Source of the DNA: Crossiella equi
GTDB lineage: Bacteria; Actinomycetota; Actinomycetes; Mycobacteriales; Pseudonocardiaceae
Length of the DNA: 64,000 nt
Assembly (NCBI RefSeq): GCF_017876755.1
Contig: NZ_JAGIOO010000001.1
Span: forward strand, 6,557,786 to 6,621,785
Direction of reading: 5' to 3'
A program made the translations under genes and the position numbers. Position 1 is the first letter of the stretch; every line of letters starts with the position of its first letter. Below the pieces are notes generated by a model. That model was given only the letters and a program-made list of their open reading frames with translations, made no database searches and was not told the origin of the DNA. Below are positions 18,668 through 23,810 of the stretch, piece after piece.

Positions 18668-19213
18668 GTGTCCAGCGCGCCGCGCGACGAGCTCGTCGCC
18701 CAGCTCGAACCCCTCGTGCGGGAAACCGTGCACGAGGTCGGCTTCGAGCTGGAGGAGCTCGACATCCGGCAGGCGGGACGACGTCGGCTGGTCCGGGTGG
18801 TCGTCGATTCCGACGACGGCATCGGCCTCGACGAGATCGCCAAGGTGTCCCGTTCGGTGTCGGCCACGCTCGACGCGCACGACGCGATCCTGGCCAGCGC
18901 CTACACCCTCGAGGTCACCTCGCCCGGCATCGACCGGCCGCTGACCCACCCGCGCCACTGGCGCCGCAACAAGCTGCGCCTGGTGAAGGTGCGGCCGGTG
19001 GAGGGCGCGGAGTACCTCGGCCGCGTCGGTACCGCCGACGACCACGAGACCGGTGGCGTGGTGCTGCTGGTCGACGGCGAGCTGCGCACGGTGCCCTACC
19101 GCGAGATGGCCAAGGCCGTCATCGAGGTGGAGTTCCGCCAGCCGCCGACCGAAGAACTGATCAAGCTGGACCGTTCCCTGGGCGCGGACGGATCGAAGGA
19201 GGAGTCGAAGTGA
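18668..19213 (+). CDS. rimP: Ribosome maturation factor RimP
   Basis: A 181-residue 30S assembly factor. N-terminal alpha/beta domain with [10 protein letters not shown] and [10 protein letters not shown] (about 25-50), [15 protein letters not shown], then the signature [14 protein letters not shown] near 90-105 and a C-terminal SH3-like domain. The GTG at 18668 is chosen because AAGGAG lies 7 nt upstream at 18655-18660; the longer frame from 18611 has no such site. First gene of the rimP-nusA-ylxR-infB operon; its TGA overlaps the nusA start as GTGA. Confidence 0.96.
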
Positions 19214-20244
19214 ACGTCGACATCGCCGCACTCAGGGCGATCGAACGGGACAAGGACATCCCTTTCGAGACCGTCATCGAGGCCATCGAGACCGCGCTGC
19301 TCACCGCGTACAAGCACACCGAGGGCCACGCCCCGCACGCCCGCGTCGACATCGACCGCAAGAGCGGCGTGGTGCGGGTGCTCGCCCAGGACCTCGGGCA
19401 CGACGGCACCATCGCCCAGGAGTGGGACGACACGCCGGAGGGCTTCGGCCGCATCGCGGCGACCACCGCGCGCCAGGTCATCCTGCAGCGCCTGCGTGAC
19501 GCCGAGCACGAGAAGACCTTCGGCGAGTTCGCGGCCAAGGAGAACGAGATCATCGCCGGTGTGGTGCAGCGCGACGCGCGCGCCAACTCGCGCGGCATGG
19601 TCGTGGTGCAGATCGGCGACACCGAGGGCGTGCTGCCCCCGGCCGAGCAGGTGCCGGGCGAGGACTACCAGCACGGCAACCGCATCAAGTGCTACGTGGT
19701 CGGCGTCTCGCGCGGCGTGCGCGGCCCGCAGATCACGCTCTCCCGCACGCACCCGCACCTGGTGCGCAGGCTGTTCGCGCTGGAGGTCCCGGAGATCGCC
19801 GACGGCACCGTGGAGATCGCCGCGGTGGCGCGCGAGGCCGGGCACCGGTCCAAGATCGCGGTCCGCTCCACCGTGTCCGGAGTGAACGCCAAGGGCGCGT
19901 GCATCGGGCCGATGGGTGCGCGCGTGCGCAACGTCATGAGCGAGCTCTTCGGTGAGAAGATCGACATCGTCGACTACTCCGAGGACCCGGCGACCTTCGT
20001 CGGGAATGCGCTCAGTCCGGCGAAGGTTGTCTCCGTCCGGGTGGTCGACGAACGGGCCAAGACCGCCCGGGTGGTCGTGCCGGACTTCCAGCTCTCCCTC
20101 GCCATCGGCAAGGAGGGGCAGAACGCCCGGCTGGCCGCTCGGCTGACCGGGTGGCGCATCGACATCCGCAGCGACGCCGACCCCGCCGGACCTGGGGCGG
20201 GAGCCGCGGCGGCCGGTGCGGCGGCCTCGGGTTCGGCTGACTGA
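19210..20244 (+). CDS. nusA: Transcription termination/antitermination factor NusA
   Basis: A 344-residue RNA polymerase-associated factor. N-terminal RNAP-binding domain (1-125), S1 domain (about 105-180, [18 protein letters not shown]), then two KH domains: KH1 around 190-270 ([22 protein letters not shown]) and KH2 around 280-325 ([20 protein letters not shown]). It lacks the C-terminal acidic repeats of E. coli NusA, as is normal for actinobacteria. The short Ala/Gly tail is low-complexity. Starts on a GTG overlapping the rimP stop. Confidence 0.97.
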
Positions 20245-20294: not shown

Positions 20295-20552
20295 GTGCAC
20301 GAAGGTCCAGTACGGACGTGTGTCGGATGCCGGTCCCGGGCGTTGGCCCAAGAGCTGCTGCGAGTGGTGGCCGATAACGATTCGCTTGTTGTCGATCTCC
20401 GGCGTAGGTTGCCCGGTAGGGGGGCGTGGCTGCACCCCGATCCGGAATGCCTACGCCTGGCTGAGCGGCGTCGAGCGTTCCCGCGAGCGTTGCGCGTTCC
20501 GGGACCGGTCGACGTGGGCGAGGTCAGGAACCACCTCGAACAGCGTGCTTGA
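20295..20552 (+). CDS. ylxR: YlxR family RNA-binding protein (DUF448)
   Basis: An 85-residue basic protein. Family signature RTCVGCRSR near the N-terminus, then VDLRRRLPGRGAWLHPDPEC, which matches the YlxR fold. It lies between nusA and infB, as in most bacteria. In some species YlxR binds RNase P RNA or acts as a nucleoid protein; that role is inferred here. The GTG start gives the usual length. Confidence 0.92.
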   Translation: MHEGPVRTCVGCRSRALAQELLRVVADNDSLVVDLRRRLPGRGAWLHPDPECLRLAERRRAFPRALRVPGPVDVGEVRNHLEQRA

Positions 20553-20584
20553 GAATCTTCACCGGTGCGAGAACCTCTCGCGCC

Positions 20585-20662
20585 ATGTCCGGAACAAGGA
20601 AGCAGGTCGACCCGTCATGAGTCAGCCGTGAAGCTGAAGCCATGAGCGCGTTTCGACGGTAG
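20585..20662 (+). promoter_or_regulatory. Chain of four overlapping mini-ORFs in the infB leader
   Basis: Four consecutive tiny reading frames: 20585-20620 (MSGTRKQVDPS), 20617-20631 (MSQP), 20628-20645 (MKLKP) and 20642-20662 (MSAFRR). Each stop overlaps the next start by 4 nt (ATGA, GTGA, ATGA). None is in frame with infB, which starts 46 nt after the last stop. The arrangement looks built for serial termination and reinitiation, so it may control IF2 synthesis. From memory, Streptomyces infB leaders have similar ATGAGTAC-type chains. The translation of these ORFs is unproven. Confidence 0.5.
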
Positions 20663-20666
20663 GCGA

Positions 20667-20691
20667 GGTCGAGCGGGATTGCCGCTTGGCC
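20667..20691 (+). other. Hairpin between mini-ORF chain and infB
   Basis: GGTCGAGCGG and CCGCTTGGCC form a 10-bp stem (two G-U pairs) with a 5-nt loop. It starts 5 nt after the last mini-ORF stop and ends about 9 nt before the infB ribosome binding site. No T-run follows, so an effect on translation is more likely than termination. Confidence 0.5.
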
Positions 20692-20708
20692 TCCAGAATA
20701 GGAGACCA

Positions 20709-23700
20709 GTGCCAGGCAAGGCCCGCGTGCACGAGCTCGCGAAGGAGCTCGGTGTCACCAGCAAGGATGTTCTGAACAAGCTCAAGGAGCTCGGCGAGTT
20801 CGTCAAGTCAGCGTCGTCCACCGTGGAAGCCCCCGTCGCCCGTCGGCTGCGGGACTCCCTCGGAGCCGGTGACTCCGCGAAGCGCTCCGCTCCGCGGCCC
20901 ACGCCGCCCGCCGCGCGTCCGACGCCCGGCGACGTGAAGCCCAAGTCCGCCGAGCAGCCGCGCCCCGGTGCGCCGGTGCCCGGCCCGTCCGCGATGCCCG
21001 CCCGCCCGGGTCCCGCGCCCAAGCCCGGTCCGCGCCCCCCGGCGCCGAAGCCGGCTCCGGCCGCGCCCGCCGCCCAGGCTCCGGCTCCCGCCGCTGCCGC
21101 GGCCCCCTCGCCGTCCGCGCCCAAGCCGGCTCCGGCCGCGCCGAAGCCGCCGGTCGCGCCGAAGGCCGAGCAGCCCCGCGTGGAGCAGCCCAAGGCCGAC
21201 GCCCCGCGCGCCGAGCAGCCCCGTGGCGACCGTCCCGGTCCCTCGGTCAAGCCCGGCCCGCGCCCAGGCCCGAAGCCGGCCCAGGACGCCGGTGTGGTGC
21301 CGCCGAAGACCCAGTCCCCCAAGCCCGGTCCGCGCGCGCCGCGTCCCGGCAACAACCCGTTCGGTGTCGGCGCCGGTGCGCCGCCCGCACGTCCCTCCTC
21401 TCCGCGTCCGGGCACCCCGGGCGCGATGCCCTCTCGGCCGAGTGACTCCCGGCAGGGTGACGGACCGCGTCCGTCCGCGCCGCGGGGTGACCGTCCGGCG
21501 CCGGGCAGCGGTGGTCCGCGTCCCAATCCGGGCAACATGCCGCCTCGGCCCAACCCGGGCATGATGCCGCCCCGGCCCGCCCGTCCGGCTGGTCCGGGTG
21601 GCGGTGGCCGTGGTGGCCAGGGTGGCCCCGGCGGCCGTGGTGGCCCCGGTGGCGGCGGTCGTCCCGGCGGTGGCGGCGGTGGCGGTGGCTTCCGCGGCGG
21701 TCCCGGCGGTGGCGGCGGCGGTCGTCCCGGTGGCGGCGGCGGTGGCGGTGGCTTCCGCGGCGGTCCCGGCGGTGGCGGTGGCGGCGGCGGTTTCCGCGGC
21801 GGCCCCGGTGGCAGCCCCGGCGGCGCGCCCGCCGGTGGTGGCGGTGGTTTCCGCGGGCGTCCGGGTGGTCCCGGTGGCCGTGGCGGTGCCGCGGGTGCCT
21901 TCGGCCGTCCGGGTGGTCCGGCTCGCCGTGGTCGCAAGTCCAAGCGCCAGAAGCGCCAGGAGTTCGACAACATGCAGGCCCCGTCCATCGGCGGCGTGCG
22001 CCTGCCGAAGGGCAGCGGCGAGGTCATCCGGCTTCCCCGTGGCGCCTCGCTGACGGACTTCGCCGAGAAGATCGGCGCCAACCCGGCTTCGCTGGTACAG
22101 GTGCTGTTCCACCTCGGTGAGATGGTCACCGCGACGCAGTCCGTCTCCGACGAGGTGCTCGAGCTCCTCGGCTCGGAGATGAACTACCAGGTCCAGGTCG
22201 TGAGCCCGGAGGAGGAAGACCGCGAGCTGCTGTCTTCCTTCGACATCACCTACGGCGAGGACGCCGGGGACGAGGACGACCTCGTCATCCGCCCGCCGGT
22301 GGTGACCGTCATGGGTCACGTCGACCACGGTAAGACCCGACTGCTGGACACGATCCGCAAGAGCAACGTCCACGAGGGCGAGGCCGGCGGCATCACCCAG
22401 CACATCGGTGCCTACCAGGTCCAGACCCAGCTCGAGGGCAACGACCGCCTCATCACCTTCATCGACACCCCGGGTCACGAGGCGTTCACCGCCATGCGTG
22501 CCCGTGGTGCGAACTCCACCGACATCGCGGTGATCGTGGTCGCCGCCGACGACGGTGTGATGCCGCAGACGGTGGAAGCGATCAACCACGCCCAGGCGGC
22601 CAACGCGCCGATCGTGGTCGCGGTCAACAAGATCGACAAGGAGGGGGCCAACCCCGCCAAGATCCGCCAGCAGCTCACCGAGTACGGGCTGGTCGCCGAG
22701 GAGTACGGCGGCGAGACCATGTTCGTGGACATCTCGGCGCGCCAGAACATCAACATCGACGGCCTGCTCGAGGCGATCCTGTTGACCGCGGACGCTTCTC
22801 TGGACCTCCGGGCGAACCCGAACATGGAGGCCCAGGGTGTCGCGATCGAGGCGCACCTCGACCGCGGCCGTGGCCCGGTGGCCACCGTCCTGGTCCAGCG
22901 CGGCACGCTGCGCGTCGGCGACTCGATCGTCGCCGGCGACGCCTACGGTCGCGTGCGCCGCATGGTCGACGAGTACAACGACGACGTCACCGAGGCGACC
23001 CCGTCGCGTCCGGTGCAGGTCATCGGTCTGACCTCGGTGCCCGGTGCGGGTGATACCTTCCTCGTCGTCGACGAGGACCGCGTCGCGCGCCAGATCGCCG
23101 AGCGCCGCCAGGCCCGCATCCGCAACGCCCAGAACGCGGCCAAGCGGAAGCGGATCAGCCTGGAGGACCTGGACTCCGCGCTGAAGGAGACCAACCAGCT
23201 CAACCTGATCATCAAGGGCGACAACTCCGGTACCGTCGAGGCACTGGAAGCCGCGCTCATGAAGATCGAGGTCGGCGACGACGTCATGCTCAACGTGGTG
23301 CACCGCGGCGTCGGTGGCGTCACCGAGAGCGACATCAACCTCGCCACCGCGACCGAGAACACCATCGTCCTGGGCTTCAACGTCCGGGCCGAGGGTCGCG
23401 CCACCGAGCTGGCCAACCGCGAGGGCGTGGAGATCCGGTACTACACCGTGATCTACCAGGCGATCGACGAGATCGAGCAGGCCCTCAAGGGCATGCTCAA
23501 GCCGGAGTACGAAGAGGTCCAGCTGGGCCGCGCCGAGATCCGCGACGTGTTCAAGAGCTCCAAGGTCGGCACCATCGCGGGTTGCATGGTGCTCTCCGGC
23601 GAGATCAAGCGGAACACCAAGGCCCGGCTCCTCCGCGACAACAACGTCATCGCGGAGAACCTGCCGATCTCGACGCTGCGCCGGTTCAAGGACGACGTCA

Positions 23701-23810
23701 CCGAGGTCCGCGAGGGCTTCGAGTGTGGTCTGACGCTCGGCAACTACTCCGATCTCAAGGTCGAAGACGTGATCGAGACCTACGAGATGCGGGAGAAGCC
23801 GCGCAACTGA
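20709..23810 (+). CDS. infB: Translation initiation factor IF-2
   Basis: A 1033-residue GTPase that places initiator tRNA on the 30S subunit. N-terminal IF2_N helix domain (1-45), a very long Pro/Ala/Lys linker (about 60-295), a Gly/Arg-rich section (about 295-407, FRGGPG units), a second IF2_N-like segment (about 440-500), then the G domain from about 530: GHVDHGKT (G1), DTPGHEAF (G3) and NKID (G4). Domains II to IV follow to the C-terminus. The GTG at 20709 ([13 protein letters not shown]) follows AGGAGA; an upstream in-frame start at 20679 has none. The linker is typical of actinobacteria. Ends at a 17-bp terminator. Confidence 0.97.
21590..21935 (+). repeat. Gly-rich coding repeats in infB
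   Basis: Within the IF-2 linker, GGC/GGT-rich units carry FRGGPG at 21690, 21753 and 21792 (first TTC base), spaced 63 and then 39 bp. Slipped-strand length change is likely; the number of units may differ among strains. Confidence 0.75.

Follow-up and report, generated by a model that had tools for sequence, protein, structure and literature searches.

A conserved chain of three overlapping mini-ORFs ahead of infB in Actinomycetes, a candidate ribosome-operated attenuator of initiation factor IF2

It has long been asked how cells keep their initiation factors proportionate to their ribosomes. A feedback loop is known for IF3; for IF2 in actinobacteria, none was found in the literature that we searched. 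In Crossiella equi, a soil bacterium, the leader of infB, the gene for IF2, carries a run of very short open reading frames joined to one another by 4-nt start–stop overlaps, which raises the question of whether such a run could report on translation initiation and set IF2 synthesis by it. The analysis described here, which started from a 64,000-nucleotide stretch of DNA (the window), suggests that the leader probably lets the cell gauge the efficiency with which translation is initiated and tune IF2 to it.

The infB leader of Crossiella equi

The window sits in a 9.44-Mb single-contig genome, and all features described below lie on its forward strand (+). Upstream of infB are nusA (19210..20244; Pfam NusA_N and KH_5) and ylxR (20295..20552; DUF448, Pfam YlxR), the stop of which precedes an infB leader of 156 nt. 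The infB gene itself (20709..23810; translation initiation factor IF2, Pfam IF2_N, GTP_EFTU and IF-2) starts with GTG at 20709, behind the Shine–Dalgarno (SD) sequence AGGAG (20700..20704). A sequence-only reading of the window had described four mini-ORFs with 4-nt start–stop overlaps in this leader, and its coordinates proved exact throughout: an 11-codon ORF (MSGTRKQVDPS, 20585..20620) is followed by three that we term uORF1 (20617..20631), uORF2 (20628..20645) and uORF3 (20642..20662), the successive junctions being ATGA, GTGA and ATGA. The stop codon of uORF3 is TAG (20660–20662), and the main stem of a hairpin, H1, begins 2 nt further on. The same reading had placed a 10-bp hairpin at 20667–20691; the hairpin is present but longer, with 12 bp joining 20665–20676 to 20682–20693 and one additional pair past a bulge; its MFE is −23.4 kcal/mol (z −4.8), a stability that 0 of 200 shuffles reached. 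A second hairpin, of 9 bp with a 3-nt loop, lies between ylxR and the chain (20564..20584; z −4.3 for the fold, with none of 200 shuffles equally stable), and many leaders of the family have, by eye, comparably tight hairpins of different sequence at this position.

The improbability of such a chain, which had been asserted from the letters alone, holds under strict limits and gives way under looser ones. With ATG or GTG starts and ORFs of 3–12 codons, a chain of four arose in 0 of 5,000 dinucleotide shuffles of the leader and 0 times in a genome background of 928 kb (464 kb of the C. equi genome, both strands); a chain of three arose in 13 of 5,000 shuffles and six times in the 928 kb. When ORFs of 2–20 codons were allowed, chains of at least four appeared in 1 of 5,000 shuffles and once in 928 kb, and with TTG starts admitted as well these counts became 7 of 5,000 and six. 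Because these looser limits yield chains of four or more by chance, conservation is the real test, and the chain in one leader taken alone is suggestive only.

Conservation of the chain

Three ORFs with ATG or GTG starts and two 4-nt NTGA overlaps stand ahead of infB in 169 of the 174 distinct leaders sampled from the class (219 of 224 loci before removal of duplicates), and the chain is represented in all 37 sampled families. Short leader ORFs upstream of the putatively regulated gene, as in an attenuator, are accordingly present in 169 of 174, and stop–start overlaps of the kind that makes a termination–reinitiation relay join them in the same number, or in 172 of 174 if 1-nt overlaps are also allowed. 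Shuffled leaders passed the chain test in 55 of 6,960 cases. Outside the class, in the same phylum, the chain occurs in 0 of 51 leaders, namely 0 of 11 and 0 of a set of 40 in which four infB starts were placed by match and some of the others are possibly off by a few codons. Named Streptomyces have it in 42 of 42 distinct leaders, which bears out the statement in the sequence-only reading that Streptomyces infB leaders carry a ATGAGTAC chain. The exceptions retain their ORFs: L071, L132 and L153 have 1-nt overlaps (details by eye), and L022 and L031, from one genus of family f1, keep three mini-ORFs with the second overlap turned into a 3-nt gap (by eye), a natural variant that would be useful for testing the role of the overlap.

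Conserved overlaps with drifting codons had been proposed as a check, and this pattern is found in every sampled family of the class. The frame, the overlaps and the sizes (about 4, 5 and 6 codons) stay, and the peptides drift between families. The commonest sizes of uORF1/2/3 are 4/5/6 codons (59 leaders) and 4/4/6 codons (54 leaders), with dominant ranges of 4, 4–5 and 5–7 codons. The window encodes MSQP/VKLKP/MSAFRR, family f2 MSTP/VKSR/MTMRHS, Streptomyces MSTR/MSTR/MSTPMK, and a leader from a 1.3-Mb genome (L085, family f27) MKLK/MSSFTS/MRSNN; f1 is presumably Pseudonocardiaceae, and f2 presumably holds Mycobacterium. Counted within families, there are 41 distinct peptides for uORF1, 58 for uORF2 and 94 for uORF3. 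We considered a stall-peptide or amino-acid attenuator and rejected it because the uORF peptides are not conserved; neither a conserved stall peptide nor conserved regulatory codons were present among them.

The 11-codon ORF, which the sequence-only reading had counted as the first member of the chain, was left out of the device because its start varies or is missing in the family: it is present in five of five genomes of the genus and variable or absent across the rest. The chain is a conserved device, and its core is the last three mini-ORFs, at 20617–20662. Its third ORF does not overlap infB, the distance from the last stop to infB being 33–66 nt (median 43) in the 169 chain-bearing distinct leaders, so that direct coupling of a uORF to the main gene does not describe this leader.

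Some features of individual ORFs may be recorded here. A strong SD consensus at the usual spacing was not found ahead of uORF1, which weighs against the attenuator reading given below. In family f21 (for example L058 and L080), uORF1 starts in 7 of 9 leaders with GTG after a strong GAAGGAGA instead of the usual ATG, and by its sequence this uORF1 looks made for translation. In Streptomyces (for example L066 and L189) and some other families, a two-codon frame, TTG-CGA-TGA, overlaps the start of uORF1 by 4 nt and is possibly a fourth link of the relay. Of the family-level types, 30 of 50 for uORF1 and 28 of 54 for uORF2 have CGA as the sense codon directly ahead of TGA; CGA may be a slowly read codon.

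Hairpin H1 and an alternative pairing

H1 lies between the last stop and the SD sequence, and its onset falls 0–6 nt past the uORF3 stop (group means, 38 of 38 groups). In the window, folding and a scan of ribosome positions (see below) mark its 5′ arm (20665..20676) as a putative anti-sequestrator that a ribosome standing on the uORF3 stop could cover. Its 3′ arm (20682..20693), from the fold and the computed cost of opening the ribosome-binding site (RBS), is also a putative anti-RBS element, and it has a second possible partner downstream, which in most families is infB codons 3–6. The resulting structure in the window, H2 (20673..20726), is a putative sequestrator in which 20673–20694 is predicted to pair with 20701–20726 (MFE −30.2 kcal/mol, z −3.9), burying both the infB SD sequence and the start codon. 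Computation thus predicts two mutually exclusive structures, one of which hides the RBS, as in an attenuator.

The second partner is matched across families. In the Streptomyces family, 31 of 49 distinct leaders contain ACCCGGACCT, the perfect 10-nt complement of AGGTCCGGGT in infB; the 5′ arm of H1 typically complements only 7 nt (by eye). Over 38 groups, the duplex of the 3′ arm with the infB codons has a mean energy of −17.0 kcal/mol versus −14.7 for permuted partners, and in the 26 families whose IF2 starts with AKVR −19.0 versus −17.5; 0 of about 2,000 permutations were as low as the observed mean, in tests that ignore the tree and treat families, which are non-independent samples, as units. 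Beyond a 6-bp core, the 3′ arm pairs for a further 2.99 nt with infB versus 0.85 nt with its own 5′ arm. Among the 25 groups parsed in this arm-extension test, which took AKVR-type infB starts only (unparsed L060, L111, L136, L156 and L163 were left out), infB was the better partner in 20, equal in 4 and worse in 1, and permuted partners reached the observed extension in 0.003 of draws for infB versus 0.25 for the 5′ arm. At the third base of the Arg codon, the 29 family-level types show G–C in 19, G–T in 3, T–G in 2, C–G in 2 and T–A in 1, and a C–C mismatch in 2 (f43, f45). The 3′ arm of H1 tracks clade-specific infB codons.

The leaders of f38 and f44 lack complementarity to the infB codons; in them the SD sequence itself can pair with the arm (by eye; folds of L073 and L076). 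One f38 leader, L161, has ACTGGAG in place of ACAGGAG at its SD sequence, and the facing hairpin arm has changed to match (by eye). The window's own family varies too little for covariation to be demonstrable within it.

Computed cost of opening the infB RBS

We analysed the switch by computing how much free energy the opening of the infB RBS requires, either with H1 formed or with the first 10 nt past the last stop masked. The mask mimics a ribosome whose A site holds the stop codon, and its length corresponds to the reach of such a ribosome past the stop. The mean cost over 38 groups was 8.9 kcal/mol with H1 formed and 18.0 kcal/mol in the masked state, and in 37 of 38 groups the masked cost lay more than 1 kcal/mol above the cost with H1; at equilibrium, with nothing masked, it averaged 11.5 kcal/mol. 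The open state would need co-transcriptional folding, H1 first, because H2 often rivals or beats H1 at equilibrium. Opening free energy replaced another measure, the mean unpaired probability of the SD sequence and start codon, after the result of the latter had been seen: it moved in no consistent direction (lower when masked in 14 of 39 groups), and it was replaced because it scores the SD sequence as unpaired when this lies in the H2 loop.

Because the measure was changed post hoc, we added a random-hairpin control and a mask scan, each with up to four leaders per group. Random hairpins made by re-dealing the same pairs gave 9.0 kcal/mol with the hairpin and 12.3 kcal/mol masked. The real masked cost lay above the random mean in 38 of 38 groups, and in 15 of 38 more than 5% of random hairpins (25 per leader) matched the real hairpin in closing the RBS. 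As the mask was extended, the cost rose from 11.6 kcal/mol (no mask) to 17.8–18.0 at +8 to +12 and fell to 16.2 at +16. A ribosome mask at the uORF2 stop left the mean at 12.2 kcal/mol, the same as with the whole chain free, and masking at the uORF3 stop cost more than 1 kcal/mol above masking at the uORF2 stop in 35 of 38 groups. Effects were weak in f24 and f40 in both the masking and random-hairpin computations. In these models, the layout fits a ribosome standing at exactly the end of the relay.

A model for control of infB

On balance, and with a little more conviction than doubt, we read the leader as a ribosome-operated translational attenuator of infB that acts by serial IF2-dependent re-initiation and exerts negative feedback. 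This reading is based on the conservation of the chain, the geometry of stop and hairpin, the exclusivity of H1 and H2, and the way in which the 3′ arm follows infB codons; we infer translation of the uORFs, the identity of IF2 as the signal and the sign of control. A ribosome would start on uORF1, terminate and re-initiate at the two 4-nt overlaps, and so arrive at the uORF3 stop. The 5′ arm of H1 would be covered by a ribosome parked there and by no other; the freed middle segment would then pair with the infB RBS as H2, and infB translation would drop. If initiation capacity were low, above all that of IF2 with fMet-tRNA, the relay would break, H1 would form first during transcription, and the open RBS would yield more IF2, whereas high IF2 would close it. 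Because one initiation and two re-initiations would act in series, the response should be steep.

Published work bears on the central step. In E. coli, re-initiation with a mutant initiator tRNA that has a low affinity for IF2 increased about 2.5-fold when IF2 was overproduced, and the authors suggest that re-initiation may need IF2 more than de novo initiation does (PMC2268962). AUGA termination–reinitiation was shown with a mycobacterial leader (PMC11260477), and NTGA-type overlaps are over-represented in mycobacteria (PMC4633059). Since IF2 raises re-initiation in E. coli and AUGA coupling operates in mycobacteria, low IF2 should break the relay and raise infB expression. Drop-off of peptidyl-tRNA promoted by IF1 and IF2 on mini-ORFs was also considered, and nothing here is built on it.

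The sequence-only reading had already entertained an autoregulatory attenuator. That idea gains a predicted alternative pairing between the hairpin and the RBS, incompatible with H1 and new to that reading, and loses the 11-codon ORF as a part; its interpretation overall is partly supported.

Alternative explanations

The switch could operate as proposed and answer to something instead of, or besides, IF2: release factor 2, ribosome recycling, fMet-tRNA formylation or drug stress. Chains with 4-nt overlaps force TGA at the ends of uORF1 and uORF2, and every step of re-initiation feeds into the relay; against such signals, the regulated gene is that of IF2 itself, and IF2 limits re-initiation in E. 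coli (PMC2268962). We regard another signal as possible, if doubtful. It is compatible with the attenuator reading, and the confidences that we attach to the different explanations do not sum to one.

The main rival has the opposite sign. The chain may load ribosomes that re-initiate at the infB RBS after the last stop, so that uORF translation activates infB and the hairpin serves only to span the distance or is opened by the oncoming ribosome. AUGA coupling does activate the downstream gene in mycobacterial ppe2 (PMC11260477), and delivery of ribosomes by short ORFs has been proposed in a review (PMC12548453); the 33–66 nt from last stop to infB also suit this explanation. However, infB has its own SD sequence and no overlap with uORF3, masking of the 5′ arm favours closure of the RBS in 37 of 38 groups with an effect that peaks at that very position, and delivery leaves unexplained that the 3′ arm follows infB codons more closely than it follows the 5′ arm of its own hairpin. 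We therefore consider delivery rather unlikely, and prefer attenuation.

It is more improbable still, in our judgement, that the chain serves as translation coverage, its ribosomes keeping Rho off an otherwise untranslated leader so that low initiation ends the transcript prematurely: Rho-dependent termination shaped by uORFs has been reported in mycobacteria, but this explanation predicts neither H2 nor the fixed 4/5/6-codon sizes and overlaps, and one longer ORF would do. We give least credence of all, and very little, to overlaps that are a by-product of RNA structure or of a protein-binding site with ATGA repeats, the ORFs being untranslated, for although TCATG...CATGA and TCAGC...GCTGA form inverted repeats in the window's family with strongly conserved nucleotides (by eye), ORF sequences vary widely between families where overlaps and frame persist, the chain is found in 172 of 174 distinct in-class leaders, and even the exceptions keep their ORFs with 1-nt overlaps (L071, L132, L153) or a 3-nt gap (L022, L031).

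Relation to known systems

Attenuation by uORFs and NTGA coupling are known kinds of control. A conserved three-step relay with an RBS switch, placed upstream of the gene whose product drives re-initiation, is new as far as the literature searched goes. That search covered infB leaders, uORFs and re-initiation in actinobacteria in the main texts of mostly open-access journal articles, and none of the passages found there described such an infB leader. The window had no Rfam match at the gathering threshold or at E values up to 1, and seven other leaders had none up to E = 0.5.

The leaders of ermC and trp, and those of mycobacterial ilvB1 and whiB7, resemble the attenuator reading in that the position of a ribosome in a leader ORF picks between exclusive hairpins. 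They differ in reading drugs or charged tRNA by stalling on one ORF, whereas the infB leader has three ORFs without conserved codons and would work by serial re-initiation. Mycobacterial NTGA coupling uses the identical 4-nt stop–start overlap; there, one ORF is joined to a gene, whereas in the infB leader three ORFs are joined mutually and none to infB (PMC11260477, PMC4633059). IF3, encoded by infC, likewise is an initiation factor that limits its own translation, but it acts via a non-standard start codon, which Streptomyces infC also has, and not through a leader relay (PMC5472188).

The yeast GCN4 leader is alike in principle: several short uORFs, with re-initiation reporting on the factor that brings initiator tRNA. 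GCN4 control differs in its eukaryotic scanning, spaced uORFs and a transcription activator as its target, whereas the infB leader has tight overlaps, an RNA switch and the factor's own gene; there is no homology. For us it is an evenly balanced matter whether the leader is a bacterial counterpart of GCN4 control, a serial re-initiation counter of IF2 and initiator tRNA supply in which an RNA switch at the third stop sets IF2 translation. Its apparent age would be that of the class, and it would operate in the actinomycetes sampled, which range from Streptomyces to organisms with reduced genomes (about 1.2–1.5 Mb). If true, bacteria use serial re-initiation as a measuring principle. The device is compact, is present in every sampled family of the class, including the antibiotic-making Streptomyces, and can be tested with a few point mutations.

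Leader sampling

Leaders were gathered by searches with the IF2 N-terminus in family, class and phylum, and the corresponding regions were fetched. Loci were taken from 30 of 118 matching genomes in the family search; the class search (216 matching genomes) contributed the window's own genome, 29 other loci and 77 regions, the phylum search eight further in-class loci, and 80 named loci (79 Streptomyces and 1 Microtetraspora) were added. Rows dropped were L001 (the window), L069 and L110 (dummy 10-base stretches), L086 and L087 (genomes already included), L169–L188 (control stretches), L095, L102 and L108 (out of class, infB start missed by the script, inspected by eye) and L007–L011 (second IF2-N-like matches in other proteins), so that 224 loci from the class and 11 from outside it remained. 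Where leaders shared an identical 110 nt together with 30 nt of infB, a single copy was kept, which gave 174 in-class and 11 out-of-class leaders. The chain finder accepted ATG and GTG starts and took the most downstream chain.

The matches L007–L011 (L009 at G000:C1:3384314-3384463) come one from each genome of the genus, five in all, and belong to a second protein of about 930–980 amino acids that carries an IF2-N-like stretch (48% identity over 50 residues) and is, we presume, RNase E-like.
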